Origin: Nitrososphaeria archaeon | GTDB taxonomy: Archaea; Thermoproteota; Nitrososphaeria; Nitrososphaerales; JACAEJ01 | DNA length: 33,972 bases | Direction of reading: 5' to 3' | Assembly (NCBI GenBank): GCA_029775875.1 | Contig: JARVKD010000011.1 | Span: 1-33,972 of the forward strand | Shown: positions 3,838 to 25,058 of the stretch, piece after piece | Layout of the letters: each line of letters opens with the position of its first letter | How positions within the stretch are numbered: position 1 is the first letter of the stretch | Made by a program: the position numbers and the translations under genes | Notes under the pieces: generated by a model | The model's database searches: none | Told to the model about the DNA's origin: nothing | What the model saw: only the letters and a program-made list of their open reading frames with translations

Positions 3838-3929
3838 GGGCCGGTCGTCTAGCATGGTTAGGACGTCAGTATAATTACCGTCAAGCTCTGACACGGCGAA
3901 GGTCGGTGGTTCAAATCCGCCCCGGCCCA
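3838..3929 (+). tRNA. tRNA-Val(GAC) with a predicted 17-nt intron at 3868..3884
   Basis: Acceptor GGGCCGG/CCGGCCC, discriminator A73, D-stem GTCT/GGAC, T-stem GGTGG/CCGCC with loop TTCAAAT. After removing 17 nt the anticodon arm is TCGCT-CTGACAC-GGCGA, giving anticodon GAC. Without removal no cloverleaf anticodon arm forms. Confidence 0.8.
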
Positions 3930-3974: not shown

Positions 3975-5168
3975 TTAAACAGGTTTCCAAGAACCTGCAT
4001 TATATTCATGCAAAATAGCCTCGTAGACTCCGATTGTCCATTCAGCTATCTTATCCCAGTTGTAGTTCCATAGGCATTTTTGATACGCATTGTTTACGAT
4101 CCAGTCTTTGAAGCCTACATCTCTTATTATCCTCAAAATACCCCAAGCCAGGGCTTCTGGATTGTTCGGAGGAACTTTTAGACCAGTGCCTTCATGATCC
4201 ACGATTTCGTCTAATCCTCCAATTGAGCTAGCAACTAATGGGCAATGGGCAGCCATGGCTTCTAATGCGACTATCCCAAAGGGTTCAAACCTTGAGGGAA
4301 CAATGGCTACGTCTGCCACACGGTACAACGCTCTTAGAGTCCAATCGTCTATATGTCCAGTGAAGAGTATCTTGTTGCCTAAACCATGATCTTTGGCCAG
4401 TCTTTGATACTCATCTCTCTGCGGACCCTCTCCAACCACAACTATCTTTGCGTTGACACCCTTACCCAAAATTATAGGAAGTGCTTTGATTAAAACATCC
4501 AAGCCCTTCTCTGGCACAAGCCTTCCAACGAATAAGAGGATTTTCTCTGATGCATGTGCAAACCTGTTCCTAATCTCCCAATAGTTAAAAACGAAGTTGA
4601 ACTTTGTTACATCTACTCCATTTGGTATTACACAAACTTTGTTTTCTGGGACTCGGAAACACCAAGAAACATGGTCTCGCATGTAGTATGAACATGTGAT
4701 TATTCGCCAAGACTCATAGCACAGCCAACTCTCGATTTCGTGGATGCAAGCTTGTAGATCGTTGTGAATTCCATTTCTCCTACCGTACTCTGTGCTGTGC
4801 ATAGTTGTGATTAGAGGTTTTCTGTATAGGTGCTTTAATCCAATTCCAGCAACTCCTGAGAGCCAATCATGAGCATGGATTACATCGACGCCTTTGATAA
4901 GGCTGATGAGATCGCAGCCCTTTCTTTCCATGTTCTTCTGCATGCGTAAGGCCCAACTGAGAAAAGAGTCTCCAGCTGCGTAGGCTTCGAACCTGTGCAC
5001 ATTTACGCCTTCCACAATTTCGTACTCTTTTGCGCCTGGAAAGTTACATGTCACTACGTGAATTTCAACTCCCCTACGGGTGAGAGCCCTAGACAGATCA
5101 AAAAGATGAGAAGCTAACCCTCCTATTATTCGAGGTGGGAACTCCCATGAGAGGTGGAGAACGCGCAT
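3975..5168 (-). CDS. GT4 family glycosyltransferase, glycogen-synthase-like (full length)
   Basis: N-term LHLSWEFPPRIIGGLASHLFDLSRAL; C-domain LLFVGRLVPEKGLDVL and EPFGIVALEAMAA (EX7E); C-term YNWDKIAEWTIGVYEAI...GSWKP. Confidence 0.9.
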   Translation of the reverse strand: MRVLHLSWEFPPRIIGGLASHLFDLSRALTRRGVEIHVVTCNFPGAKEYEIVEGVNVHRFEAYAAGDSFLSWALRMQKNMERKGCDLISLIKGVDVIHAHDWLSGVAGIGLKHLYRKPLITTMHSTEYGRRNGIHNDLQACIHEIESWLCYESWRIITCSYYMRDHVSWCFRVPENKVCVIPNGVDVTKFNFVFNYWEIRNRFAHASEKILLFVGRLVPEKGLDVLIKALPIILGKGVNAKIVVVGEGPQRDEYQRLAKDHGLGNKILFTGHIDDWTLRALYRVADVAIVPSRFEPFGIVALEAMAAHCPLVASSIGGLDEIVDHEGTGLKVPPNNPEALAWGILRIIRDVGFKDWIVNNAYQKCLWNYNWDKIAEWTIGVYEAILHEYNAGSWKPV

Positions 5169-5176
5169 TTAGATCA

Positions 5177-5818
5177 CTAAGCTTGTAAGGTTTCTTGAGC
5201 AACTCTCTGATAAACAGAAAACACTTCATCGACCCAGCCCTTGCCCACAGGCCACACTACGTCCATTTTTTTCCTATGACCATCACCATAATACCTCAAA
5301 ATCTCATTTTTCAGCCAATCTGTGTTAGTAATCACCTTGTTAGACTCCCATATTCCAGTGTCCTCGATCTCTTTTATGGCGATGCTGAGCGGACCGAAAC
5401 GGTTGTGAGACCGATGCCCCTCTATTGAGTGAAGGGTTAGGACAAAAGGAATATTAAAAGCATGTTTCAAACTGATCGCTGGAGAAATTGTAAGCCATTC
5501 ATGAGCATGTATGAGATCGATGCTTTTCTGATGCTGTTTGTAAAAGTAAACAATGTTTGAGGCTTCGTTTTCTATTTGCACGGATGCTGTCATAGCATAC
5601 GTTAGCACACTAGCCATTGGATGAGTTTTGACTGGGTTAGCGACTCTGTGGACATGGACGCCGTATACATCCTCAAATCCTGGCCGTAAATCATCTAAAA
5701 CCATAACCTCTACTTCGTTTTCGCGCTTCACGAGTTCATGGGCCAATGTGGAGACGTGGTCAGAGACGTTTCCTAAGCGTTTGGGCGGGTACTCCCATGT
5801 GAGGATTAGGACACGCAT
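5177..5818 (-). CDS. Standalone N-terminal half of a GT4 glycosyltransferase (no C-terminal donor-binding domain)
   Basis: 213 aa; MRVLILTWEYPPKRLGNVSDHVSTLAHELVKR and IDLIHAHEWLTISPAISLKHAFNIPFVLTLHS align with the N-domains of neighbouring GT4s; the ORF ends before any GRL..EKG or EPFG..ALEA motif. Confidence 0.85.
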   Translation of the reverse strand: MRVLILTWEYPPKRLGNVSDHVSTLAHELVKRENEVEVMVLDDLRPGFEDVYGVHVHRVANPVKTHPMASVLTYAMTASVQIENEASNIVYFYKQHQKSIDLIHAHEWLTISPAISLKHAFNIPFVLTLHSIEGHRSHNRFGPLSIAIKEIEDTGIWESNKVITNTDWLKNEILRYYGDGHRKKMDVVWPVGKGWVDEVFSVYQRVAQETLQA

Positions 5819-5843
5819 TAGTAATCCCTAAGATTTTTAGAAT

Positions 5844-6032
5844 TCACGCTGGAGAGAAGTTCTCCTTAATTTGTAAATCTATCATGTTTAAGATATGATA
5901 TCTCAGTAGTTCATCCTCAAATTCTTGCCCTCTAATCCATCCGGTCTCTTCAGCTAGCTCTTTTGGCTTAGCCCTTTCCATTTCATAAATTATCTTTAAG
6001 ATTTTGATGTCGTCTTCTGTTAGTTGGGAAAT
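5844..6032 (-). CDS. Small HTH-like protein (62 aa), possible ATT start
   Basis: Minus-strand reading ISQLTEDDIKILKIIYEMERAKPKELAEETGWIRGQEFEDELLRYHILNMIDLQIKENFSPA*; ATT preceded by SD-like AAGGTGGTT. Alternative ATG start gives ~45 aa. Not in the ORF track. Confidence 0.5.
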   Translation of the reverse strand: MSQLTEDDIKILKIIYEMERAKPKELAEETGWIRGQEFEDELLRYHILNMIDLQIKENFSPA

Positions 6033-6107
6033 AGAACCACCTTACAATTGTTTTAAGTATATGCTTTTATTTTTAGCTTACTTAAACTTAAAGCAAGTGG
6101 TTAGATA

Positions 6108-7322
6108 GTGAAGCCAAAGCTTTATTTTGCAATAGTTTTGCACATGCATCAACCAAGATACAACTTTACTGGACCCACATACGAGTCTGAAATTGCCCGA
6201 GACGTTTTCAATCAAACCCTTCACCCTTACACGTATCCACCTGAGATCATCGAAAAATATGAGAATGCGAAAATAACCTTCAACTTTACAGGAAGTCTTA
6301 TTGAACAGTTGAACGAGCTTATGAAAGCTGACTTTGATCCGAGACTGAAAGGATTATGGGACAGATATCTAAAATCAAAGAAGCTGGAGAGAGTCGAGTT
6401 CACAGGTTGTGGTTACTTTCATCCTATATTTCCCCTAATACCAGAAGATGATCGTCGAAAACAGATTGAGATGCACCTTAAAATCTCTGAAGAGACTTTT
6501 GGGGCGAGACCTAAGGGCTTCTGGCTTCCAGAACTCGCCTTCAGCACTAGAGTTGTTCCTGTTCTGGCAGAGATGGGTCTCAAGTGGACCATCGTAGACG
6601 GTCCTCATATAGTAAATGCCAATAAAGACATGGATAGATTCGATCTTCTTTATCATCCCCACTACGTTGAGTATGAAGGGCACCAAATAATCGTAATTCC
6701 AAGAGACAGAGGTATTAGTAATGCACAACAAAGTGGTTATAATCCTATCTGGCTTAAAAACGAAATCGAAAATTCAATTCAGCCTCACAATGACGGGGAC
6801 TTCTTGCTGACGGTTGCTACAGACGGAGAAAACGGTTGGTTTCGCCATTCTGGTGCGAACGCTGGCTTTTGGGGCTGGTTCTTTGAACCTCTTGCATACT
6901 TGCTGGGTAAAGACCCTGATTTTAATTTCATTGAGCTAATTACTATTGATGAGTATCTTAAAGAACATCCTCCTCATGATACAGTTGTTGTTGAGGATGG
7001 AAGCTGGAATGTACCAGGAACTTTTGACGATGGAAGATTTCTAAAGTGGACTGAGGGAGAACACAGAGAAAAAACATGGACTCAAATTTTGGAAACCAGT
7101 AAGCTCCTTCACGAAGTTGATGAAAGAGTTAAGGCTTTAGCTAATAATTGCCCATTGGAGGCTGTGGAGGCTCTCCAACAAGCTTGGAGGTGGCTTCTTA
7201 TGGCTGAGGCAAGTGATAACTTCTGGTGGGGAAGTGAAGATTGGTTAAACCGATCAACGATCTGTTCTATTAAGGCGAGGGAAAAGATGAAGGAAGTATC
7301 AAGGCTTTGCCATTTTACGTAG
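6108..7322 (+). CDS. Glycoside hydrolase family 57
   Basis: GH57 motifs: HMHQPRY (motif 1), GFWLPELAFS (nucleophile region), TVATDGENGWF (acid region). GTG start. Confidence 0.9.
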   Translation: MKPKLYFAIVLHMHQPRYNFTGPTYESEIARDVFNQTLHPYTYPPEIIEKYENAKITFNFTGSLIEQLNELMKADFDPRLKGLWDRYLKSKKLERVEFTGCGYFHPIFPLIPEDDRRKQIEMHLKISEETFGARPKGFWLPELAFSTRVVPVLAEMGLKWTIVDGPHIVNANKDMDRFDLLYHPHYVEYEGHQIIVIPRDRGISNAQQSGYNPIWLKNEIENSIQPHNDGDFLLTVATDGENGWFRHSGANAGFWGWFFEPLAYLLGKDPDFNFIELITIDEYLKEHPPHDTVVVEDGSWNVPGTFDDGRFLKWTEGEHREKTWTQILETSKLLHEVDERVKALANNCPLEAVEALQQAWRWLLMAEASDNFWWGSEDWLNRSTICSIKAREKMKEVSRLCHFT

Positions 7323-8523
7323 GTTTCCAAGAACCATGCTGATACTCATCACATATCGATTGGTATAAAGCCTTAACCTTCTCTGCTATCTTGCTCCAGT
7401 TATACATTTCTCTAACTTTCCTGTCAGCGTTTGACCTGATCCATTCGGCATAAGATGGGTCGAGTAAGACTCTAGTTATACCCCATGCCAATGACTCTAC
7501 ATTATTTGGATATACTTTTACTCCTGTCTTGTCATGCTCAACTATTTCTGCTAGTCCTCCTGTGTCTGATACTACTACTGGAACCTTTGCTGCCATAGCT
7601 TCTAATGCGACTATTCCAAAAGGCTCATAAAGAGAAGGAACCACACAGACATCAGCGCATTGGTAAAGAAATCTTACGCTCTGCTCGTCTAGAAAACCAG
7701 TGAAAAAGATCTTGTGAGCCAACCTCATATTGTTAACTTGGACCTTAAGGAAGTCTTTCATCCCTCCCTCACCAACGATCACAAGTTTTGCGTTTACTCT
7801 AGCCAAAACCTTGGGCATGGCATTGATCAGCACATGAACTCCTTTTTCATTGACAAGACGTCCCACAAAGAGGATGATCTTTTCATCGGGCTCTGCAAAC
7901 TTGCTTCTAAACTCTTGCTTTTTGAACTCTTGCTTAAACACGTCTGCGTTGACACCGTTCGGAATCATTACCACCTTGTCTTCCGGCAGTCCAAATGCCC
8001 ACCTTGTATGAGAAACCATGTATTGACTGCAACACACAACCTTCCAAGCCTCATGTGCAAGCCATGCCTCTGTCTCATGGATCATCCTCTCATAATTTGT
8101 GTGAAGGCCGTTTCTTCTCCCTATTTCAGTGGAATGTATAGTAGCCAATAAAGGAATCCTAAAGATGTGTTTTAGTCCTATTGCAGCATTGGCTACGAGC
8201 CAGTCGTGAGCATGAATAAGATCAACTTTTCCATTTAAATTACTGATAATAGTCGCAGCTTCCTTTTGCATATTCACATTCATCAGATAGTCCCATGTGG
8301 CGAAGTCTGGAGAAGGAGTCTTGTATGAATCCACTCGAATAACATGGACACCATTCACTTCTTCGTATTCTGGTGCTCCTGGGAAGTCACAAGTCACTAC
8401 GTAAGTATCTACTCCCATGCGGGCTAAGTGACTGGACAAATTGTAGACATGAGGAGAAATTCCTCCAACTGTTCTAGGTGGGAACTCCCAAGAAAGCATT
8501 ATGACTCGAAGTTGACGGTTCAA
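7315..8523 (-). CDS. GT4 family glycosyltransferase, glycogen-synthase-like (full length)
   Basis: LSWEFPPRTVGGISPHVYNLSSHL; ILFVGRLVNEKGVHVLINAMPKV; EPFGIVALEAMAAKVPVVVSDTGGLAEIVEH; C-term YNWSKIAEKVKALYQ...GSWKP. Confidence 0.92.
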   Translation of the reverse strand: MNRQLRVIMLSWEFPPRTVGGISPHVYNLSSHLARMGVDTYVVTCDFPGAPEYEEVNGVHVIRVDSYKTPSPDFATWDYLMNVNMQKEAATIISNLNGKVDLIHAHDWLVANAAIGLKHIFRIPLLATIHSTEIGRRNGLHTNYERMIHETEAWLAHEAWKVVCCSQYMVSHTRWAFGLPEDKVVMIPNGVNADVFKQEFKKQEFRSKFAEPDEKIILFVGRLVNEKGVHVLINAMPKVLARVNAKLVIVGEGGMKDFLKVQVNNMRLAHKIFFTGFLDEQSVRFLYQCADVCVVPSLYEPFGIVALEAMAAKVPVVVSDTGGLAEIVEHDKTGVKVYPNNVESLAWGITRVLLDPSYAEWIRSNADRKVREMYNWSKIAEKVKALYQSICDEYQHGSWKPT

Positions 8524-8546
8524 CTGAAAATCACCCTAATCCAAGC

Positions 8547-9179
8547 TTAAGATGCTAGATTTGGGGAGATGCCTAGCGCTTTTCTATAGGCTATAAGAAT
8601 CTCGTCGATCCAGGCTGGCGAATGGGGCGAGACAACCTCTATCTTTTCAAGGGGCGTTTTATAGATTCGTCTCACCTCTTGTTTCATCCATTCTGATTTG
8701 ACCAAAACTCTCTCAGCTTCATCGACGCCCAACAGTTCTAGACCTTTTATTGAGAGGTTCAAAGGAGCACTAGAGCCATGAGATCGATGATCTTCAAGAC
8801 TGTCTATAGAGAAGACAAACGGGATTCCTAACCCTCTCTTTAAGCTCACTGCAGCTGGAGTGAAATGCCAATCACATACATCGATAAGATCAACTTCACG
8901 TTTGGTCAAGTAAAAAATATCGGCAGCAACCCGTTCAACCTCCTGATTTAGGTTGAGGACCCATGTGAGAATGTTTATCTGGGATTTAACAGGATTTGAA
9001 ACTCTGTAAACTTTGACCCCGTCTACTCCTTGATGATAGCCTATCCAAGAGTCATGATATGTAACAACGTATGTGTCAACACTCTTTTTCACGAGGTCAA
9101 TTGCAAGTTTGTTCACATAATGAGAAAGCTGTCCAACAATTCTCGGTGGAAACTCCCATGTGAAGATTATGACGCGCAA
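8547..9179 (-). CDS. Standalone N-terminal half of a GT4 glycosyltransferase (paralog of 5177..5818)
   Basis: 210 aa; MRVIIFTWEFPPRIVGQLSHYVNKLAIDLVKK aligned to GT4 N-domains; shares DHRSH...APLN..IK..E with the other half-GT (GHRSH...GPLSIAIKEIE); no C-domain. Confidence 0.85.
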   Translation of the reverse strand: MRVIIFTWEFPPRIVGQLSHYVNKLAIDLVKKSVDTYVVTYHDSWIGYHQGVDGVKVYRVSNPVKSQINILTWVLNLNQEVERVAADIFYLTKREVDLIDVCDWHFTPAAVSLKRGLGIPFVFSIDSLEDHRSHGSSAPLNLSIKGLELLGVDEAERVLVKSEWMKQEVRRIYKTPLEKIEVVSPHSPAWIDEILIAYRKALGISPNLAS

Positions 9180-9192
9180 GGTAAAACCTCAA

Positions 9193-9447
9193 TCAAGTGA
9201 AAAGTGAGCAAACCCTAATTATTCCATTGCCTGTCAAATAGTGTCTTATGTTTCCGTCATTATCAGTGAGGCTTATGGTGTATCCTTCAGACTGATACTT
9301 ATTCATGATTTGATTGACTTCATTTACGTCGGTTTGAAGAATCTGCGCTAATTCGTCAGATTTCTTCGCTTTCTCTCGACTCGTAGCACCTAGATTGTGC
9401 AAGATTAGAAGGATTCTCTCAGAAAGTCGATAATCTTTCTCACTCAA
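9193..9447 (-). CDS. Winged-helix (wHTH) protein homologous to the C-terminal domain of the GT4 at 9553..11037
   Basis: 84 aa; ...KSDELAQILQTDVNEVNQIMNKYQSEGYTISLTDNDGNIRHYLTGNGIIRVCSLFT versus ...RSAEELSSILRIKVKEILRLLQKLISSGYIETSIDHLKRLRYHLTKSGIIKACSLFS. TTG start. Confidence 0.8.
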   Translation of the reverse strand: MSEKDYRLSERILLILHNLGATSREKAKKSDELAQILQTDVNEVNQIMNKYQSEGYTISLTDNDGNIRHYLTGNGIIRVCSLFT

Positions 9448-9552: not shown

Positions 9553-11037
9553 ATGGTCAAAGATGACTTTAGCGTTCTGATGCTCTCTTGGGAGTTCCCA
9601 CCTAGAATCGTAGGCGGAATATCATCTCACGTTAACGATCTATCCTTAGCCTTAGCGAAGAAAGGTATAAGCGTACACGTAGTCACTTGTGACTTCCCAG
9701 GAGCACCAGAATACGAGGAAATTCAGGGGGTCTGCGTATACCGCTTTGATTCATACAAAATCCCTGCCTACAGCTTTCTCTCATGGGTCCTCTCAATGAA
9801 TCAAAAAATGATTCAGAGAGCCATGGAAGTAATAGATGCACATTATGGAAAAGTTGATCTTATTCATGCTCACGACTGGCTCGTTGCTGATGCAGCGATT
9901 AGGTTGAAGGACTTTTATGGAAAACCTTTGGTGTCTACCATGCATTCTACAGAGGCTGGTCGAAGAGGTGGAATCCGCAACGACTACCAAATGACCATAA
10001 ACGAAGTGGAGAGACGCCTTGTCAATGAAAGCTCAAAAGTAATCTGTTGTAGCAACTATATGGCAAATCAGATTTCTGAGACATTTAACTTTCCAAGAGA
10101 AAAAATCTCCGTGATTCGAAATGGAGTAAACGTTTCTAAATTTAACATCAAAATTGATGCCCAAGCTGTTAAGAGGCGATATGCCGAGCCTAATGAAAAG
10201 ATGGTTGTATATGTTGGAAGGCTGGTTCACGAGAAGGGAGTTCATGTACTGATTGGCGCAGTTCCGAAGGTGTTAGATGTATTGCCGAACGTGAAGTTTG
10301 TGATCGTTGGTGAGGGAGGGATGAAAGAGTATCTGTTAAAAGAGGCTTGGGACTTCGGTGTTTCTGATCACGTTTTCTTTACTGGTTTTGTGGACGAGAG
10401 CATGCTGGTATCGCTTTACAAAGCGAGTGACGTTGCGGTTTTTCCTTCTCTTTATGAGCCCTTCGGTATTACAGCATTAGAAGCCATGGCAGCAAAGGTT
10501 CCAGTAGTAGTATCAGATACAGGAGGTTTATCTGAAATCGTTGAGCATGACAAGACAGGAGTAAAAGTATATCCAGACAACTCTGATTCAGTGGCTTGGG
10601 GAATTCTAAAGGTGCTTAAAGATCAAGCCTTTGCAAACAAGATTCGAGAAAATGCCTATCAAAATGTTGTTGAAAACTATAATTGGGACAAAATCGCAGA
10701 GGAAACAATAAAGGTGTATCGTGAAGGTGTAACTTTGGCTCAACCGAGAATAGTTGCAAAGTATAGGGTAGAGTTTCCTTCTTTTAAATTTGATAGTTAT
10801 CCCGATGAGTTTAGAGTTCTCCTTTCCCTATACACCCTTGGAGCCATTGATAGCGAACATGCAAGGTCGGCTGAGGAACTGTCTAGTATACTGAGAATAA
10901 AGGTTAAGGAAATCCTAAGATTACTTCAAAAACTAATAAGCTCTGGATATATCGAGACTTCTATAGATCACTTGAAAAGACTGAGGTATCATCTTACCAA
11001 ATCTGGGATAATAAAAGCATGTTCACTTTTTTCTTGA
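9553..11037 (+). CDS. GT4 glycogen-synthase-like glycosyltransferase fused to a C-terminal winged-helix domain
   Basis: Complete GT4 (LSWEFPPRIVGGISSHV; VYVGRLVHEKGVHVL; EPFGITALEAMAAKVPVVVSDTGGLSEIVEH; YNWDKIAEETIKVY) followed by a ~100 aa extension homologous to 9193..9447. Confidence 0.9.
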   Translation: MVKDDFSVLMLSWEFPPRIVGGISSHVNDLSLALAKKGISVHVVTCDFPGAPEYEEIQGVCVYRFDSYKIPAYSFLSWVLSMNQKMIQRAMEVIDAHYGKVDLIHAHDWLVADAAIRLKDFYGKPLVSTMHSTEAGRRGGIRNDYQMTINEVERRLVNESSKVICCSNYMANQISETFNFPREKISVIRNGVNVSKFNIKIDAQAVKRRYAEPNEKMVVYVGRLVHEKGVHVLIGAVPKVLDVLPNVKFVIVGEGGMKEYLLKEAWDFGVSDHVFFTGFVDESMLVSLYKASDVAVFPSLYEPFGITALEAMAAKVPVVVSDTGGLSEIVEHDKTGVKVYPDNSDSVAWGILKVLKDQAFANKIRENAYQNVVENYNWDKIAEETIKVYREGVTLAQPRIVAKYRVEFPSFKFDSYPDEFRVLLSLYTLGAIDSEHARSAEELSSILRIKVKEILRLLQKLISSGYIETSIDHLKRLRYHLTKSGIIKACSLFS

Positions 11038-11040
11038 TAG

Positions 11041-12597
11041 TCAAAAACATTGCATTACTGTTTGAGCTAACTTTTTAATCTCTGTAAAACGATGATTGGA
11101 AACCTGAAACAGATCTTGTCTAAGTTTCTCTCCTCGAACTCCTGAAACTTGAACCTCCTTAAACTTCTGAGCTAACTTTTCATCTCTCAGTGAGAAAGCT
11201 GCCCACTTTTCAAAGTCTCCTCTTCGATTGTGAAACTCAATAGACTTTATGTCGACCCTTTGAAGAGCATCACTCATTCCTGCAAGACTCCAGACCTTGA
11301 CTCCAGTGAAGTCTTTCTCCTCTGAGCCCATGTAAAAGAGGAAAGGCTCATTCGCAGCAATAATATATGATCTTACCCTTGACTCGAAATCGAGGATGGC
11401 GCCTTGGGCAGTGACAAAAGCATCTATTGGAGAGTCGTAAGGGTTAAAATAGGTGTGAACTTCGCCTGGCGCCCCACCAGCCGTAAACATATAGTAAAGA
11501 TGATCGCTGGCTAGAAGATATCTCCAGATCTTTAGAAACTCTTCATCTTTGGATTCCTTGACTAGTGGCTCTAGTTCCTTTGTTATAGTGTAGTACGCCC
11601 ACTGCATTGTATTTCCAAGCCAGCAACTTGTGTCTCGTTCAATGTCAGCCCAAGAGACCGTGCCACCAAGTTCAGGGACATCAACTTCTCCAACAACCTT
11701 ATACTTGCTCAGAACCTCTGAGGGTGTTGCCATTTGGAGATTTTCCCACTTCAGAATTTCCTTTGGTAAGTATCTTAAGAAATCATGTATCCCAGTTTCT
11801 GGCCAATGATGTTCGCCAAAGGTCTCATAGTCTGGAAAGATGTTGATGCACTGACCTTGAGTTGCTGCCAACCAAGAGGCATATTTTTCAGCCGTCAGCG
11901 GCCACTCACTCCACTGTCTATCTGAGAATCTAAAACCGATGTCATCTGTGAGTTTATAGTTTCTTAAGAGAACCTTGATCTTCTCACAATTCTTTGCTTT
12001 GTACACGTAGTTAGGTGACCTGCCCTTAAGGACTCTTTCAACTCCTTCGGTGAAGATTCCAATGTAGCCCATTTTCTCCACGACCTTGGCTATAGCGTTA
12101 TTGTAAAGGAGTTCTGTATTCTCAAAAGTTAGTGGTTCAGCGTTAAGAAGGTCTTTCATTACTTGTCTGTGCATCCTGATCTGTTCGACGAATTCATCTC
12201 TGACTGGGTATAATCCAGTTAGAGAATGGTAGTAGGTCTGGTCTAGAAACTCAACACATCTTGTTTCGCTCAGTTGTTTAAACGACTCCAAAAGATCTGG
12301 ACTGTAAGCTTCACACTGTTCAAGAAAAATTCCAGATATACTGAAGGAAATCTTAACCTTTTTCTTTTCTCTTTTGAACTCATCGATAAGTTGAAGCAAG
12401 ATGTTGTTGGACGGGAAGTAGCATTTCTTGCAAGCCCTCTCAAATATCTCCCTATTCTTGGCTTTGTCAAAATAAAAATCAGACAATTCTCCTTTACGTA
12501 AGCGGCGGAACATGTTCCTCTCCCAGAAGAAACCTTTCTTGATTCTGATGGGCTGATGAACCTCGAATACAAAAACCACGTCAGTCAATCCTAGCAC
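11041..12597 (-). CDS. Glycoside hydrolase family 57 (alpha-amylase-like)
   Basis: VFVFEVHQPIRIKKGFFWERNMF; TFENTELLYNNAIAKVVEKMGY; NIFPDYETFGEHHWPETGI; archaeal GH57 alpha-amylase-type motifs. Confidence 0.9.
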   Translation of the reverse strand: MLGLTDVVFVFEVHQPIRIKKGFFWERNMFRRLRKGELSDFYFDKAKNREIFERACKKCYFPSNNILLQLIDEFKREKKKVKISFSISGIFLEQCEAYSPDLLESFKQLSETRCVEFLDQTYYHSLTGLYPVRDEFVEQIRMHRQVMKDLLNAEPLTFENTELLYNNAIAKVVEKMGYIGIFTEGVERVLKGRSPNYVYKAKNCEKIKVLLRNYKLTDDIGFRFSDRQWSEWPLTAEKYASWLAATQGQCINIFPDYETFGEHHWPETGIHDFLRYLPKEILKWENLQMATPSEVLSKYKVVGEVDVPELGGTVSWADIERDTSCWLGNTMQWAYYTITKELEPLVKESKDEEFLKIWRYLLASDHLYYMFTAGGAPGEVHTYFNPYDSPIDAFVTAQGAILDFESRVRSYIIAANEPFLFYMGSEEKDFTGVKVWSLAGMSDALQRVDIKSIEFHNRRGDFEKWAAFSLRDEKLAQKFKEVQVSGVRGEKLRQDLFQVSNHRFTEIKKLAQTVMQCF

Positions 12598-12745: not shown

Positions 12746-13822
12746 CTAAAGGTATCCAAGTTCCTTTGTGGTTATTACAAACATAGAATGGCTCCAACAA
12801 AGAGGGCTGACTGAAACTTGGAGGTCGTTCTCAAAGATTTGTTCTGGAATGAATTTTTGTACTCTGTCCAACACCCAGTTGTAGTATTGAAGAGCTTTCT
12901 CCTTGTGGCCTAATCTTGCATAGTATATGCTCAGCCAAAAGTTGAGGAGGGGCCAGGCTCCAGCGCCCTTCTTTCTATGCATGGTTTTGTAGATCCAACC
13001 ATCATACTCATCATGTTCATATCTATGAAGCCCTCCGTTCACTATAAGTTTCCTCTCCATCTCCTCTACACTTGCAACGATTCTTTTATCATTGGGTGGA
13101 AACACCTCAAAGGGATAGACTAGTCCTAGCATCGAAGCGTCTATTCTCCTGTCACTGAGCTTTCCATAACTCCTAAAGAAATAATTTTCATAATGTTTCT
13201 CAAGTCTTTCCCGCATCTGCTTGGCTACATTCATCCATTTTTCGTTAGGCATGAAAATGTTCGCGCATTCTAGTCCCTTTATGCATGCAGCGAGGGAATA
13301 AGTGAAGTTTTCTTCTAAGTCGGGAAAGGTGAACCTTTCTTCCCAGAGGTCATTGGTGACCTCATCGAAACAGTTTCCTTTCCATTTTTTGCAGATTCCA
13401 TCAGCCGCCATGCAAATGATTTTCTCATATTTTGATGCCTTTTTCAAACCATCTTTGAAGTGATGCCAAATAGCCCACAAAAAGGACCCTGTCTGATCTG
13501 GCTGAAAACTTCCAGATGCCTTTAAACCGTTAACAAAATAATTTTGATAAAAAACTCCATCATCTTGAAAATCCTCTGCCCTATTAATACACCAATCAAA
13601 AAACCTTTCTTGAATGTTTTTGATTCCAAGAATGTCTGCAGCCGCACAGGCAAAGGAGGCATCCCTAGGCCAAACGTAAGTATAGTATTTTGCGTCTTTT
13701 GCGAAATATTCTTTGGAGCAGTTAGCAGCCACAATAGCGCCATTTTCCAAGGCACAGTCCAAGATCACTCGTCTGCTGGTTTCTATCATTCTCCTAACTT
13801 TCATTTTCAAGTTATCACTCAC
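12746..13822 (-). CDS. GH15 family glucoamylase-like protein (catalytic domain only)
   Basis: YVWPRDASFACAAADILGI; NDLWEERF; GAWPLLNFWLSIYYARLG; PEQIFENDLQVSVSPLCWSHSMFV; 358 aa, no N-terminal beta domain. Confidence 0.88.
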   Translation of the reverse strand: MSDNLKMKVRRMIETSRRVILDCALENGAIVAANCSKEYFAKDAKYYTYVWPRDASFACAAADILGIKNIQERFFDWCINRAEDFQDDGVFYQNYFVNGLKASGSFQPDQTGSFLWAIWHHFKDGLKKASKYEKIICMAADGICKKWKGNCFDEVTNDLWEERFTFPDLEENFTYSLAACIKGLECANIFMPNEKWMNVAKQMRERLEKHYENYFFRSYGKLSDRRIDASMLGLVYPFEVFPPNDKRIVASVEEMERKLIVNGGLHRYEHDEYDGWIYKTMHRKKGAGAWPLLNFWLSIYYARLGHKEKALQYYNWVLDRVQKFIPEQIFENDLQVSVSPLCWSHSMFVITTKELGYL

Positions 13823-13921
13823 CTTCCTATTTCACTTTATCAAAATCTTCTTTCAAAAATAACTGATAAATCTATCGCAATTATTCCTTCCCTATCTTTT
13901 GATGAGACGGTAATTAATATC

Positions 13922-15556
13922 TTGTCAAAATTCTTTTTATGTTCTAAAAAATTTGGAGATAACTTTATAAATTTTTCAACGAGAAATTTTCTTGTGGAAG
14001 AAAGTACTGTTGTTTACGTTACACTTGAGACAGACTTAATAGATGGGGGAGGCATTGGTGGGCTAGGCATTTTAACTTCTGACGTTTTTCATGAGGCAAG
14101 GAGAAGGAACTCACCTTTTTACCTATTTTCACCTCTCTACCCAGTAAAATTACATCAAAAAATTAATAATGGCTCTGTAGAAATGGAAAGAATAAAAATC
14201 AACCATAATTCTTTGAAGAAAATTGATAGCTTCGGGTTGGATACCAAATGGTATCCTGTTGAAGTATCTGTTTATCTGCACGAGCTTAGCATAGAAAATA
14301 CTAGAAGTTATTTTATTGAGATGGCTCCAACTGAAGGAAATGGTTGGTTAAAAGAATTAGAACTTTATAATGAAAAGGATGAAGGACAGCAAGTATTTGT
14401 TAGATATACATTCGCAAGGTCTATAGCAAGATTCTTGAGGAGGAATAGTATATTGCCAAAATTGTATCACTTGAACGAAAGTGATACAGCCTTTCTAATT
14501 CTGGCAGTTGATGAAGAAGATATGAAGGGTAGATTCATCGGGAATACACATACACCTCAACTACACGGTCACAAAAGATTCAGAAAAGAAACTTGTGAAT
14601 GTCTGATAGAAGACAAATCTTTAGAGAAGCTAAAAGTAGGAGAAGAGGAGTATGGAGATATAAAATTCATAAACTTTGGGAGAATACTGGCATATTACAG
14701 CGAGAAATTATGTTGTGTCTCAGAACTACATGAAAAAGTGACAAAAGAATGCCTTTATCCTGAATTTAAAGAAAAGATAACTTCGGTAACAAATGGCATC
14801 AGCCTTGACTGGATTAGCCCTCATCTACAAAACTTGTTCAGCCAATATATTATAGGTTGGGAAAATAATAGTGATCTATTGAAGAATCTAGATGCAATTC
14901 CTAACAGTAAACTTCTGGAAGCCCACCATCTCAATAAAAGAGAACTCTCTGAGCAATTTCTTGAATGGAAAAGGAAGCAGGAAGTTATTTCTAATTTTGA
15001 TGAAATTAACATTGATAATACCATATTTACATGCGCCAAAAGGTTAACTGAGTACAAGAGGCTAGACCATTTTCTAAAACTCATCGATTTGTTTCCTGAA
15101 GCGACTTTTGTTTTTGCTGGTAGACCGATAAGGGAATGGGGAGATAAATTTCTCAAAAGTTTGATCGATACTATAAAAAATTCTGAAACATCAATAGCTT
15201 ATGTTTTAAATCATGATAGAGAAAAGGCGAGATATATGGTGGCTGGTTCAGATGTAGGAGTAAACATACCAGTATCGACCAGTGAGGCAAGCGGTACGAG
15301 TTGGATGAAGACGATTGTCAATGGGAATATTTTAGTCTCCACGCCATCTGGAAGTGTGCCTGAAGTAATAACCGATGGCAAGAATGGACTCATAGTACAT
15401 GACGACTTGTCTAATTTAAGGGAGAAATTAGAAGAGGCTGTAAGTTTTGCAAGAAATGGTGAATACGCTGAATGGATTAGAAACTCAATTTCTTCTTCTT
15501 GCTTTGTCTTAGCCCCTCGAATGTTCGATGATTATATATCAAAACTTTACAGTTAA
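13922..15556 (+). CDS. GT35-like alpha-glucan phosphorylase; start uncertain (in-frame TTG at 13922 is one option; ORF is open from 13544)
   Basis: GGGIGGLGILTSDVFHEA; HTPQLHGHKRF; ITSVTNGISLDWISP; CAKRLTEYKRLDHF; SEASGTSWMKTIVNG (phosphorylase PLP-lysine region). The ORF N-terminus overlaps GH15 antisense and is unlikely to be real. Confidence 0.8.
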   Translation: MSKFFLCSKKFGDNFINFSTRNFLVEESTVVYVTLETDLIDGGGIGGLGILTSDVFHEARRRNSPFYLFSPLYPVKLHQKINNGSVEMERIKINHNSLKKIDSFGLDTKWYPVEVSVYLHELSIENTRSYFIEMAPTEGNGWLKELELYNEKDEGQQVFVRYTFARSIARFLRRNSILPKLYHLNESDTAFLILAVDEEDMKGRFIGNTHTPQLHGHKRFRKETCECLIEDKSLEKLKVGEEEYGDIKFINFGRILAYYSEKLCCVSELHEKVTKECLYPEFKEKITSVTNGISLDWISPHLQNLFSQYIIGWENNSDLLKNLDAIPNSKLLEAHHLNKRELSEQFLEWKRKQEVISNFDEINIDNTIFTCAKRLTEYKRLDHFLKLIDLFPEATFVFAGRPIREWGDKFLKSLIDTIKNSETSIAYVLNHDREKARYMVAGSDVGVNIPVSTSEASGTSWMKTIVNGNILVSTPSGSVPEVITDGKNGLIVHDDLSNLREKLEEAVSFARNGEYAEWIRNSISSSCFVLAPRMFDDYISKLYS

Positions 15557-15934: not shown

Positions 15935-16669
15935 ATGCAAAGAAGACGCTCAGAAGAGTTTGACCTTGAGCAGATAGACATAGCCCCTACTATCTCTAAA
16001 ATAATAGATATAAATTTCCAGTCTGATGGAAGACCAATAGAAGAAATCGTTGCTTATGGAAAAAATTGTAATAAAATATTATTGCTCATCATAGACGCTT
16101 TTGGATACTCACACTACATAAAATCAAAGGGCTTCTTTCAAAACATAAGCAAGATGAGTGATAATGGAAGATTCTATAGATGCAAAGCAAACGCTAACAG
16201 GACTACGCCTGCAATAGCCTCAATTCTCTGTGGAAGAAAGCCTGAAGTGCATAGGATTTACAGTACAGGAGACGTCTACAAAAGCCACTTTAAATCAATA
16301 CTTGAGACTGCATCTGAACAAGGCATCAAGTCCGCTATAATTATGGAAGAAAAAGGCGCTTTAACTTTTGAAAAACGCATAGATACTGTCAAATTTGTGA
16401 AGGAAAGAGATAATGTTATAGAGTTCGACGATATTGCTAAGGAAGCTACCATAGAGGCAATAAAAGAAGGATGCAAGCTGATTGTTACGCACCTAAGGTC
16501 TCTTGATAAACTGGACTACACTCTTAAAGCTATTAGGCATATTGATAAGAATGTATTAGAGATTGCCAAGGCTTATGGCACTAACGGCTTGATAATGCTC
16601 TGTGGAGACCATCCACCTCATGAATCTAAGGAGTATCTAGTGCCCTTTATAGTAAGTAAAGTTGTTTAA
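15935..16669 (+). CDS. Alkaline-phosphatase-superfamily (type I phosphodiesterase-like) protein
   Basis: LLLIIDAFGYSHY, RTTPAIASILCGRKPEVHRI, IMLCGDHPPHESKEYLVPFIV are AlkP-superfamily-like. Confidence 0.7.
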   Translation: MQRRRSEEFDLEQIDIAPTISKIIDINFQSDGRPIEEIVAYGKNCNKILLLIIDAFGYSHYIKSKGFFQNISKMSDNGRFYRCKANANRTTPAIASILCGRKPEVHRIYSTGDVYKSHFKSILETASEQGIKSAIIMEEKGALTFEKRIDTVKFVKERDNVIEFDDIAKEATIEAIKEGCKLIVTHLRSLDKLDYTLKAIRHIDKNVLEIAKAYGTNGLIMLCGDHPPHESKEYLVPFIVSKVV

Positions 16670-20600: not shown

Positions 20601-21428
20601 ATGGGAACAATTTTGTTAAAACTTAAAAACAAAGTGGAAAGGCCTCTTGACGCTTCTGTTATAAGCCCTGATGTCTTTGCAGGAAAGTCTCTAAAAGAAA
20701 GAGAGAGCTTAGAGTTATGGAGAGGAAACAAGAAGATAAAATTGGGAGAAGTCTTCGAAGTTTCAGGAGAATCAGGTCAAAAACCTGAGGATATTACGAT
20801 AACAATAGAAGGCGATCTATCAAAGGCTAGGAGAATAGGCAAGCAGATGACTTCTGGCAAGATAATCGTAAATGGAAACGCTGGTTTTTACGTAGGGGAT
20901 AACATGAAAGGTGGAGAGATTCATGTTCATGGTAATGTTGACTCTTGGCTTGGCTTTGAGATGAAAGGAGGAAACATAGAGGTTGATGGTGATGCAGGAG
21001 ATTTCATAGGCTCAGCTTATAGAGGCTCAAAAAATGGAATGAGCGGGGGCACTATTATCGTAAAGGGGAACGCTGGGAGTGAAGTTGGCTGCTTTATGAA
21101 GGATGGTCTAATAAGAATAGGGGGAGATGTAGGATTATATGCAGGGGTTCATATGCAAGGCGGTACTATATTCGTCTCTGGAAGCTCTCTCGGTAGGCTT
21201 GGCGCTGAAATGACAGGAGGAAAGGTAATAGTGATGGGAAAGGTTCCTGATGTTCTGCCAAGCTTTATAATAGATGAAGTCAGACCAAACATAAAAGTGG
21301 GAGCAGACAAGATAACAGGTCCCTTCTACTCCTTCTCAGGAGATATGACAGAAGGCGGAAACGGAAAGATCTTCATATCAGTCCCAAATAATGAACATTT
21401 CAAAAAGAAGGAGGCATACATTCTCTAA
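20601..21428 (+). CDS. fwdC: Formylmethanofuran dehydrogenase subunit C
   Basis: GltS-C-like beta-helix repeats (GKIIVNGNAGFYVGDNMKGGEIHVHGNVDSWLGFEMKGG...; GGTIIVKGNAGSEVGCFMKDG). Confidence 0.9.
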   Translation: MGTILLKLKNKVERPLDASVISPDVFAGKSLKERESLELWRGNKKIKLGEVFEVSGESGQKPEDITITIEGDLSKARRIGKQMTSGKIIVNGNAGFYVGDNMKGGEIHVHGNVDSWLGFEMKGGNIEVDGDAGDFIGSAYRGSKNGMSGGTIIVKGNAGSEVGCFMKDGLIRIGGDVGLYAGVHMQGGTIFVSGSSLGRLGAEMTGGKVIVMGKVPDVLPSFIIDEVRPNIKVGADKITGPFYSFSGDMTEGGNGKIFISVPNNEHFKKKEAYIL

Positions 21429-21432
21429 GGCG

Positions 21433-22395
21433 ATGAAATTGGCTATAAGTGTAAACTTGAGAGCTTTGAATATAGTAAAAGAGATGATAGAAAAGAAGGA
21501 TGAATTGGCTATAGCAGTTACAAAGGCTGAGAATGGAGCAACCATCATAGATGCAGGGATAAAAGCCAAAGGAGGTTTCATGGCTGGAAAGTATATCACA
21601 GAAATATGCTTAGGAGGATATGGTAAAGCATCTTTATGCTACTTTGATCATGATGGACTATCTTTACCTAAGATCTTTGTCTCAACAGATCATCCAGCTA
21701 TTTCACTATTAGGTTCACAGTTTGCTGGCTGGAGGATAAGTGTAGAGAAATATTTTGCCATGGGCTCTGGTCCTGCTAGAGCCATACCCATGAAGCCTAA
21801 AGAACTATATGCAAAGATAAAGTATCAGGATTCAGCAGACTCAGCAGTCATAGTCTTAGAAACCTCTGAGGAACCTCCTGTAGATGCATTGAATTACATT
21901 TCAAAAGAATGCAAAGTCAGTCCAGATAAATTATATGCAATACTCACACCAACATCAAGTGTTGCTGGCTCCACTCAGATTTCAGGAAGAATAGTGGAGA
22001 CTGGGCTGCATAGATTGGTAGAGTTAGGGTTTGATCCTCTAAAGGTTCTGTATGGTTGTGGTCAAGCGCCAATTGCTCCATCACATCCAAAGGCTACAAA
22101 AGCCATGGGAAGAACTAATGATATGCTCATGTATGGAGGCGAGACCTTCTTCATGATAGATGATGAGGATGATCAAGAGATTACAAAACTGCTTGAAAAG
22201 GCTCCATCATCATCTTCACCAGCCTATGGTCAACCTTTTTACGAAATCTTCAAGGCTGCAAACTTTGACTTTTACAAGATAGACCCTGCTCTATTCGCAC
22301 CAGCATCTATTACCATTAATAACATGAGGACTGGCAATACCTTTACTGCAGGAAAGATCAACCCAGATATTGTGAAAAAGTCTGTAGGACTCTGA
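21433..22395 (+). CDS. mch: Methenyltetrahydromethanopterin cyclohydrolase
   Basis: MKLAISVNLRALNIVKEMIEK...GGFMAGKYITEICLGGYG...; ILTPTSSVAGSTQISGRIVETGLH; APIAPSHPK. Start chosen at 21433 (after fwdC stop) instead of 21391. Confidence 0.95.
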   Translation: MKLAISVNLRALNIVKEMIEKKDELAIAVTKAENGATIIDAGIKAKGGFMAGKYITEICLGGYGKASLCYFDHDGLSLPKIFVSTDHPAISLLGSQFAGWRISVEKYFAMGSGPARAIPMKPKELYAKIKYQDSADSAVIVLETSEEPPVDALNYISKECKVSPDKLYAILTPTSSVAGSTQISGRIVETGLHRLVELGFDPLKVLYGCGQAPIAPSHPKATKAMGRTNDMLMYGGETFFMIDDEDDQEITKLLEKAPSSSSPAYGQPFYEIFKAANFDFYKIDPALFAPASITINNMRTGNTFTAGKINPDIVKKSVGL

Positions 22396-22511
22396 ATAGT
22401 CCTTTTTACATTTTTATCATGCTCGACACACTTACACGAAGACTGTTTAAAATATTAACGAAGCGGTACTTTGAGAAAGGATATTAGTTAAGAAAAAATA
22501 GATTTTAATGA

Positions 22512-23405
22512 TTGAACTTGCCCCAAAGGATAGGATTACTTACAAGAGATCCTGAATCATGGTGCTCCAATCAGTTGCTAAAGTCTATGGTTAAGAAAGG
22601 TATCGATCCAGTATGCTTTAGCCTACCAGATTTAGTTGCCAGAGTAGCCATCAAGCCTTATGTTACAACAAAGGAAGGAATAGACTTGCTCAAGGAATTA
22701 AGTGCTATTCTAGTTCGACCTATAGGTAGAGGATCTTTAGAAGAGATCATCTTTAGATTGGATGTTCTTCGTGGATTAGAGAGAAAAGGTTTACTCATAA
22801 TCAACCCACCAAGAGCCATAGAAATCTCTGCTGATAAACATCGTTCATTGACTCTGATGGAAGAGCAGGGCATAAAAGTTCCTCCGACCATAGCTACTGA
22901 AGATACTGAAGCTGCGATGAGAGCCTTTGAAGAGTTAGGAGGAGATGTAGTAATAAAACCTATATTTGGCTCTAGAGGAATAGGCATAGGTAGAGTCAAC
23001 GATCCAGAGACTGCTTGGAGAATCTTTCATGCCTTGAGCTATACTAGACATGTATTATACATTCAAAAATTCATCCCTCACGGTACTAGAGATATAAGGC
23101 TCTTCGTGATTGGGGATAGAGTTATAGCTGCCATGTATAGAGAGGCTGATAGCTGGAAGACGAATATAGACAGAGGTGCAAAGCCAGTTCCTTTTGAACC
23201 ATCCAAAGAGCTTGAAGAATTAGCAATAAAAGTTGCCAAGACGATAGGTTGCAAAGTTGCAGGAGTGGATGTGATGGAGAGCCAAGAAGGATACATGGTG
23301 AATGAGATAAACAGCCAGCCAGGCTTTAGAGGATTACAGCTTGTAACTAAAGTCAATATTGCAGATGAGATCATAGACTATATCCTTGAGAATATACGAC
23401 GTTGA
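22512..23405 (+). CDS. RimK-family ATP-grasp ligase; probable tetrahydromethanopterin:glutamate ligase (MptN-like)
   Basis: ATP-grasp: GGDVVIKPIFGSRGIGIGRV; IPHGTRDIRLFVIGDRVIAAMYR; VAGVDVMESQEGYMVNEINSQPGFRGL; adjacent to mch. Confidence 0.8.
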   Translation: MNLPQRIGLLTRDPESWCSNQLLKSMVKKGIDPVCFSLPDLVARVAIKPYVTTKEGIDLLKELSAILVRPIGRGSLEEIIFRLDVLRGLERKGLLIINPPRAIEISADKHRSLTLMEEQGIKVPPTIATEDTEAAMRAFEELGGDVVIKPIFGSRGIGIGRVNDPETAWRIFHALSYTRHVLYIQKFIPHGTRDIRLFVIGDRVIAAMYREADSWKTNIDRGAKPVPFEPSKELEELAIKVAKTIGCKVAGVDVMESQEGYMVNEINSQPGFRGLQLVTKVNIADEIIDYILENIRR

Positions 23406-23431
23406 TACTTCTTTTCTGAAAATTAATTTTA

Positions 23432-23680
23432 TTAACTAGTTTTCTTTGTTTTTCTCGCTTTTTCCATGAACGTGAAGATCAGCCATGCTATCACTCCATA
23501 GATTACCCCATTAAACACTGCGGACACCAAGGTTGTTGCAGGTACCCCAAGTACTAAGTACTCAGTTCCTGGAACGCCTAATAAGCTGTAAAGCTGTATT
23601 CCCGGAGGTAGATAAACATACACTAAGGTGGCTAACAAGAATACTATGAAGACTATTAAGAACACTATTGCCCCTCTCAT
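23432..23680 (-). CDS. Small membrane protein (two predicted hydrophobic segments)
   Basis: MRGAIVFLIVFIVFLLATLVYVYLPP... and ATTLVSAVFNGVIYGVIAWLIFTFM. Confidence 0.55.
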   Translation of the reverse strand: MRGAIVFLIVFIVFLLATLVYVYLPPGIQLYSLLGVPGTEYLVLGVPATTLVSAVFNGVIYGVIAWLIFTFMEKARKTKKTS

Positions 23681-23753
23681 TTCATCCCCTCATCAGCTTG
23701 GTCGATGAGCCGGATAATAACTTTTCCATAAATATTTTACCTTATCTCGCTAT

Positions 23754-24659
23754 TTAATACATCTCCAGAGCTTCTTTTAGTTTGATCTGGTATGGACCGA
23801 GTTTGCCTCCAAAGTTCACTGCAGATATCTTGACTACACCAGGCACATTCATGGCTGCCTTTACTCCTGCTGCTGTGGCTTTTTTGACAATATCTTCTGT
23901 CAAACCATTGAAGACAAGTTCGTATATGCTGTTCACATTTGGAGGGACTTTTGAGTCAGGAATAACTCCTCTCAATACAGGACAGAAAGGATGATTTGTC
24001 GATGCAGGTAGCTTATACTTCGTGGAGCCAACCTTTGACCCTGAGCGACAAATTCCACCTGGGAAGGTTAGAACAACTCCCTCGACCTTGCCCATGGCTT
24101 CAACAGCATCCTCTGATGCTTTTAGAGCAGATTTTTGACTTTCAGCCATTATTAGAAAGTTTCCACCAGCCACCGCTTTTTTCAATCCGAATCTATCCTC
24201 GATTATGAATTCTCCTTCCATGACCGGGATTCTCCATACCTTCTTTCCAAAGACCTTATCTAACTTTTCAAAGCCATCGCCAAACATTCGAATGGATTTG
24301 CCCAGTCTTGTGTATTTCTTAGCATCGGGTATACCATTGAATATTGCTGTAGTTGGGCAGGTTAGTATGCACTGACCTATTCTTGCCAGCATCTGAAACT
24401 TTAGCATAGGTAAAGTTCTATGGTAGATCTGAACGTAAACACCAGGTCTTCCATCTGGAGTCTTTTCTGGAGGCACTATCGTTCCTTCTACACCTGCCTC
24501 TGCTGGAGACATGATTATGGAAGAGGCAAAGCCTGTGGCAGTCCTACCTGCAGTCAGAGCCCATTTCTCGTTTTCAGCAGTCACTAGCATTCTACCAGCG
24601 ATCATAGGAAAGGCTTCAGCAAAAGTATCTTCAACTTCTACTTCAGGCATTTTATTCAA
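23754..24659 (-). CDS. ftr: Formylmethanofuran:tetrahydromethanopterin formyltransferase
   Basis: VEVEDTFAEAFPMIAGRMLVTAENEKWALTAGRTATGFASSIIMSPAEAGVEG; LTFPGGICRSGSKVGSTKYKLPASTNHPFCP. Confidence 0.95.
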   Translation of the reverse strand: MNKMPEVEVEDTFAEAFPMIAGRMLVTAENEKWALTAGRTATGFASSIIMSPAEAGVEGTIVPPEKTPDGRPGVYVQIYHRTLPMLKFQMLARIGQCILTCPTTAIFNGIPDAKKYTRLGKSIRMFGDGFEKLDKVFGKKVWRIPVMEGEFIIEDRFGLKKAVAGGNFLIMAESQKSALKASEDAVEAMGKVEGVVLTFPGGICRSGSKVGSTKYKLPASTNHPFCPVLRGVIPDSKVPPNVNSIYELVFNGLTEDIVKKATAAGVKAAMNVPGVVKISAVNFGGKLGPYQIKLKEALEMY

Positions 24660-24710
24660 ACCTCACCTTTAAGTGACTAATGATGGCATTTAAAATATTT
24701 TCTAATAAAT

Positions 24711-25052
24711 ATGAGTAAAGCAATTAAATACTTTGAGATTCAAAATAGAAAAATAATTATAAATGCGATAAGAATGCTTAAGTTGGGGAGAAATTTGGTA
24801 GATTTTGATAAAATCGTGAGAGGAATCCCTCAAGGTTCTCTTGAAAAAGTTTCAGACGAATTGGTCAAGATTCTTCTTGGCTCTCCAAATACTGACAAGA
24901 TGCCCGAAGGGTTGGCAAAAGCTATGTTGCGTCATTGGCAGTGTGACGAACTATCATCGCCTACAGGAGTCAAAGTCCTTTTAGAAGCGTCCATGACTTT
25001 GGAGGAAGAGAAGACGAAGGCTTCTCTTCAAGCCCTGGGAGTTCAATTGTAA
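24711..25052 (+). CDS. Hypothetical protein immediately upstream of mer
   Basis: 113 aa ORF ending 6 nt before mer; no family recognised. Confidence 0.65.
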   Translation: MSKAIKYFEIQNRKIIINAIRMLKLGRNLVDFDKIVRGIPQGSLEKVSDELVKILLGSPNTDKMPEGLAKAMLRHWQCDELSSPTGVKVLLEASMTLEEEKTKASLQALGVQL

Positions 25053-25058
25053 GGAGGT

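Follow-up and report, generated by a model that had tools for sequence, protein, structure and literature searches.

Here, we analysed a 33,972-nt stretch of DNA from a Nitrososphaeria archaeon (the window, one contig of a 1.23-Mb genome that is 94% complete), with a focus on a small protein corresponding to the N-terminal half of a glycosyltransferase (half-GT), on the complete family 4 glycosyltransferase (GT4) encoded directly after it and on the winged helix-turn-helix (wHTH) protein encoded directly before it. We consider it probable that the half-GT serves a GT4 alpha-glucan synthase as a non-catalytic (pseudoenzyme) subunit or regulator, and that the wHTH protein acts as an adaptor. On the minus strand of the window, wHTH A (9193-9447, 84 aa, TTG start), half-GT A (8547-9179, 210 aa) and full GT4 A (7315-8523, 402 aa) form module A, an instance of a conserved operon. 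Half-GT B (5177-5818, 213 aa) and full GT4 B (3975-5168, 397 aa), on the same strand, make up a second pair, in module B. The frames of the glycosyltransferases, of wHTH A and of a GH57 gene between the modules were all intact at the positions given in the first-pass annotation.

The description of the half-GT in that annotation as a catalytically incomplete GT-B N-domain is borne out. Halves are 190-250 aa in length, their Pfam matches are limited to N-terminal GT4 domains, and in an alignment against 93 partner GT4s they lack the NG hinge and the entire C-domain. The second Gly of the donor loop, present in 93 of 93 GT4s, occurs in 0 of the 95 halves collected (mostly Q, K, E or D), and the active-site His, again found in 93 of 93 GT4s, is kept in only 13 of 95. 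Half-GT A comprises a GT-B N-domain and a terminal helix and is non-catalytic; half-GT B, a divergent member of the same family, has GN in place of the GG loop and retains the His. Catalytic GT4s and GT-B glycosyltransferases have two Rossmann domains, the C-domain among them binding the donor, with a Gly-Gly loop and active-site His in the first and R/K and E-x7-E in the second. Neither in domains nor in motifs do halves qualify as such enzymes, and they carry a conserved signature of their own (W8, E9, G16, P120, S127, E129, R132, I144, E148 and a terminal Y198). The partner GT4s, by comparison, are complete: the GG loop accompanies the His in every one, and the C-domain motifs are present in 92 of 93, the exception being one truncated row. 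GT4 A and GT4 B both have intact catalytic residues and carry the Pfam domains Glycos_transf_1 and Glyco_transf_4, as catalytic GT4s do. Within the window, identity is 36-38% between the two halves and 30-34% between halves and GT4 N-domains; GT4 A and GT4 B share 52% identity.

Structurally, half-GT A is predicted by AlphaFold2 (alignment of 22 rows) to be a single domain with an ordered last helix at residues 190-201 (predicted local distance difference test, pLDDT, 93.2; predicted template-modelling score, pTM, 0.90). A fold search against the PDB returned the GT-B N-domains of MshA (3c48), mycobacterial GlgM (6tvp) and Pyrococcus abyssi glycogen synthase (3fro/2bis), all of which are full two-domain catalytic enzymes, unlike the half. 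The entry 6ldq matches half-GT A over its length (TMt 0.78); this is an engineered N-domain plus C-terminal helix of a cyanobacterial sucrose-phosphate synthase, and so has the same minimal architecture, but as a laboratory construct. According to a 2024 review (PMC11046441), a C-terminal helix completes the N-domain in GT-B enzymes, and from the fold and the conserved W and Y positions helix 190-201 would be the equivalent of this terminal helix.

Halves are widespread and their position is nearly fixed. A profile built from 14 half-GTs, which in genomes of the same order separates halves (>220 bits) from full GT4s (<160 bits), was run on 300 genomes of the order, 398 of the phylum and 257 of the class of genome G300 (apparently Bathyarchaeia). 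It identified halves in about 90 genomes; the 39 of 398 phylum genomes recovered at E<=1e-50 are an undercount, as distant halves score 1e-20 to 1e-41. Named contigs bearing halves include Bathyarchaeota, Bathycorpusculum, Thaumarchaeota, Nitrososphaeria and Calditenuaceae, with Nitrososphaeria and Thaumarchaeota archaeon records among the same-order relatives (L072, L074), and the next matches below are full-length bacterial GT4s. A full GT4 directly follows the half-GT in 94 of 95 loci, the sole exception lying at a contig end, and the 84-aa wHTH directly precedes it in 91. An ortholog of the GH57 gene at 11041-12597 of the window lies upstream in 63 of the 95 (one of these, L278, on a frame with undetermined bases). 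GH57 - wHTH - half-GT - GT4 is the standard arrangement in Bathyarchaeia, where this GH57 ortholog directly adjoins the wHTH. The family search and neighbourhood comparison proposed in the first-pass annotation therefore found halves neither absent nor randomly placed. In one Bathyarchaeia locus (L057, 287-2564), GAPDH and phosphoglycerate kinase genes precede the operon.

Selection and phylogeny support a retained function, as the first-pass annotation had supposed from gene order: the halves are not pseudogenes but have intact reading frames, a fixed position and the mark of purifying selection. For 14 pairs of related halves, the ratio of nonsynonymous to synonymous substitution rates (omega) falls at 0.05-0.16; between the window and its same-genus relative, it is 0.04-0.06 for wHTH A, for GT4 A and for GH57. 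All halves form one clade against the GT4 N-domains, with support of 100/99 (100/100 with distant members included). The half and GT4 trees share many groupings, and distances among half, GT4 and wHTH correlate with r=0.89-0.95, with no permutation out of 2000 reaching such values; shared species history alone could account for part of this correlation. wHTH, half-GT and GT4 have been passed on as a set from an early point in archaeal evolution.

The two modules have different histories. In both trees, module A has a Bathyarchaeia clade as its sister group. GT4 A, whose nearest relatives are from Bathyarchaeia, is 61-70% identical to Bathyarchaeia partners but 53-58% identical to those of most same-order genomes; this pattern suggests that the operon of module A moved as a unit by transfer. 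GT4 B, on the other hand, groups with another full GT4 of the window, GT4 C, and half-GT B is basal. A recent local duplication was accordingly rejected as the origin of the two modules, and the trees indicate that module B is an old divergent half-GT/GT4 pair. A third, more distant version is found in a genus of the window's family (g3; L053, L054 and L055); this strongly diverged half-GT lacks the PPR-G donor loop region and groups with the distant version of family f49 (L336) rather than with those of the window.

The wHTH family is acidic, with a median isoelectric point (pI) of 5.4 and a net charge of about -3 on its putative recognition helix, and ends in a conserved G-I-I-K/R-V-C-S-x-F-T. 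GT4 C (9553-11037, plus strand), which the first-pass annotation does not mention, is a natural GT4-wHTH fusion: its C-terminal 74 residues (domain at residues about 421-494) match wHTH A at 41% identity (E=8e-18), so that the supposed HTH partner also exists as part of a GT4. Since the protein is acidic and its homolog a fused domain of an enzyme, it looks more like a protein-protein module, with no evident sign of DNA binding, and from these sequence features we favour an adaptor role over a regulatory one; the same features weaken the "HTH sensor" first put forward for it. GT4 C is intact in the window, whereas its ortholog in a genome of the same genus (G001; L038, 1911-3436) is split over two frames, reflecting either an indel in a metagenome-assembled genome or decay.

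Module B was initially thought to repeat the complete three-gene order. Half-GT followed by full GT4 does recur on the minus strand, the genes being 8-25 nt apart. Duplication of the HTH gene, by contrast, is unsupported, because the small HTH-like open reading frame at 5844-6032 (minus strand, 62 aa) has no ATG, GTG or TTG start at that end (it begins with ATT), cannot be aligned with wHTH A and scores 1.4 bits against the wHTH profile. We rejected it as a diverged wHTH on the latter two grounds; with its Pfam HTH matches all below threshold, it is a doubtful gene and not homologous to wHTH A.

A search with the wHTH alone identified it in 106 of 300 genomes of the phylum, and 20 neighbourhoods were then examined. 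Families f20, f22, f31, f33, f42 and f49 have the layout wHTH - half - GT4, while in about ten other families, where no half is present, the wHTH still adjoins GT4 in the layout GT4 - wHTH. In family f43, half and GT4 are joined in a single polypeptide of about 570 aa, encoded downstream of the wHTH, and such fusion frames are found in three genomes. Two further candidates were discarded: a GH57-wHTH fusion in L278 (2367-4157) is an assembly artefact, its frame crossing undetermined bases, and a 294-aa frame in L283 is merely open upstream of the wHTH.

To explain these findings, we propose a single origin for the half-GT: a related GT4 would have been reduced to its N-terminal domain by loss of the donor-binding C-domain, with a terminal helix still closing what remained. 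The full GT4 would be the synthase and do the chemistry. In GT-B enzymes, the N-domain is the acceptor-binding part. The half-GT most likely binds to the GT4 and may also bind the acceptor glucan; in this way it would control acceptor capture, initiation or activity. The small acidic wHTH protein may act as a protein-protein adaptor tying together GT4, half-GT and possibly the amylase or branching-type GH57 enzyme of the operon. We prefer a non-catalytic partner because of the linkage to GT4 and wHTH, the single clade, the co-divergence, the loss of catalytic residues, the low omega, the fold, the fusions and the content of the gene cluster; the half-GT is probably a built-in non-catalytic subunit. 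The physical complex, glucan binding, the direction of regulation and the identity of the polymer are what we infer beyond these observations.

Several results weigh against this proposal. The GT4s of the window score 162-186 bits against TIGR02149, below its curated cut-off of 302.4, so that glycogen synthase is the top-ranked family and no more, and both the product and the "glycogen synthase" label derive from neighbouring genes. Modelling of half and GT4 together relied on loci with both in one frame, the single stop between them being read as Gly (L063); for the resulting read-through chain (pTM 0.63, pLDDT 77) no fixed interface is predicted, although this is weak either way with an alignment thinned to 13 rows because mixed alignments placed halves wrongly on GT4. 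Conservation focused on the cleft face of the half was a further idea that did not hold up, cleft-facing loops being conserved only weakly above other loops (p=0.04) and helices equally conserved. In two genomes of family f38, wHTH and half lie beside GH57 with the GT4 elsewhere (another wHTH of that family, L326, has no such neighbour), and some same-order genomes carry GT4 and wHTH with no half, which means that the half is not universally needed. Finally, half-GT A and its same-genus ortholog give an omega of 0.51, based on very few substitutions (dS 0.065).

One alternative is that half-GT and wHTH are a sensor-regulator pair outside the synthase, in which the half detects a ligand (glucan or nucleotide sugar) and the wHTH regulates transcription of glucan genes. 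Such a pair would account for the two f38 genomes in which wHTH and half stay together apart from GT4, for the position of the wHTH as first gene in many modules and for the resemblance of its profile to TubR, MarR and other DNA-binding winged helices. We nevertheless regard it as rather unlikely, given that the wHTH protein is acidic, with a net negative putative recognition helix, that in the window it also occurs as part of a GT4 enzyme and that many genomes lacking a half encode it after GT4, and given the fusion of half to GT4 in f43.

It is more doubtful still that half-GT and wHTH act mainly for GH57, by presenting or tethering the glucan that this enzyme would hydrolyse or branch, and merely share an operon with GT4. 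The frequent presence of GH57 upstream and the wHTH-half pairs beside GH57 without GT4 in L324 and L325 are what such a role would predict. However, the near-invariant neighbour is GT4 and not GH57, and every fusion found involves GT4, the GH57-wHTH frame of L278 being the artefact noted above.

The first-pass annotation likened the half-GT to Alg13/Alg14, a split GT28 enzyme whose GT-B domains are separate proteins (PMC10937113). In a strict form of this comparison, the half would supply an acceptor-binding N-domain in trans to a C-domain, and it is indeed a clean GT-B N-domain, split GT-B enzymes being both natural and engineerable (PMC10937113). Yet each Alg13/Alg14 subunit contributes half of one active site, whereas the partner GT4 keeps both domains, including an intact N-domain of its own, and all catalytic residues (92/93), which makes the half an extra component of a complete enzyme. 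As the half also lacks the donor-loop Gly, and usually the His, that a composite active site would need, and no lone C-domain gene occurs in the modules, we judge this explanation very improbable. A decaying, functionless duplicate of the GT4 N-terminus might be suspected from the lost catalytic residues, the omega of half-GT A in the genus pair and an evolution faster than that of the partner (median distance 0.59 vs 0.37), but is hardly credible in view of intact reading frames, a single origin, a fixed position across many families, low omega in the other pairs and the half's own invariant residues.

Other parallels to a non-catalytic GT4 partner are found elsewhere. In GtfA/GtfB-type GT4 complexes of accessory Sec systems, a catalytic GT4 needs a related non-catalytic partner, the role proposed here for the half-GT. 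GtfB differs in having a full GT-B fold and a protein acceptor. EryCIII/EryCII is likewise a GT-B enzyme in complex with an activating partner that is not a glycosyltransferase, but that partner is a P450 homolog (PMC3391682). An analogy in mode of action is Arabidopsis STARCH SYNTHASE 5 (SS5), described as a non-enzymatic relative of glucan synthases that helps catalytic partners to initiate starch granules (PMC10801857, PMC11772324). The comparison is with SS5 as described; SS5 is of the plant GT5 lineage, whereas the half-GT is an archaeal GT4-type N-domain only, tied genetically to one GT4 and a wHTH. More speculatively, and as a tentative extension of our proposal, there may be a phylum-wide glucan synthase complex in which initiation or acceptor handling falls to the pseudo-glycosyltransferase half, as a functional equivalent in archaea of glycogenin or SS5, with the wHTH a scaffold joining GT4, half-GT and GH57, the latter suspected as the missing branching enzyme of the TACK group.

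The modules lie in an alpha-glucan cluster with GT4 C, GH57, GH15 and phosphorylase-like genes. GT4 C sits between wHTH A and the GH57 gene (11041-12597, minus strand), which encodes an alpha-amylase-type enzyme with a C-terminal DUF5752. Its motifs EVHQP, ENTEL and FPDYETFGEH include both catalytic residues of the alpha-amylase group, nucleophile and proton donor, and place it in that subgroup as defined by a Glu nucleophile in conserved sequence region (CSR) 3, an Asp donor in CSR-4, Glu or Gln starting CSR-1 and Arg or Glu starting CSR-3 (PMC6037648). The second GH57 (6108-7322, 404 aa) was correctly placed between the modules, but lies on the plus strand, transcribed divergently and opposite to them. 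The GH15-type gene (12746-13822, minus strand) matches the oligosaccharide amylase model TIGR01577 at 267-612 of 616 only and lacks the usual N-terminal region, and the phosphorylase-like protein (13844-15556) matches the Phosphorylase and Glycos_transf_1 models. Adjoining the cluster, 15935-16669 encodes a 244-aa protein without a Pfam match that is 93% identical in G001, and downstream, 20601-26057 holds tetrahydromethanopterin C1 genes (MCH, FTR, a GXGXG-motif protein and a luciferase-like monooxygenase). A tRNA-like gene directly downstream of GT4 B (3838-3929) has an unclear anticodon and is possibly intron-bearing.

Archaeal glycogen metabolism and its regulation are mainly unexplored, the role of GT4 needs clarification and no branching enzyme is known from the TACK group, as reviewed in 2024 (PMC11046441); the same review notes that glycogen falls dramatically in Sulfolobus acidocaldarius when the GH57 amylase is removed in a null mutant. 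We found no description of the half-GT, its wHTH, or truncated or non-catalytic partners of archaeal glycogen synthase in the open-access literature, which is weak evidence of absence. The half-GT is a natural, deeply conserved case of a GT-B N-domain standing alone, and its operon unites an alpha-amylase-type GH57, a GT4, the non-catalytic half-GT and a wHTH protein, the very parts in question for archaeal glycogen. This gives four named proteins to reconstitute, and thereby makes the start, extension and branching of archaeal glucan directly testable.

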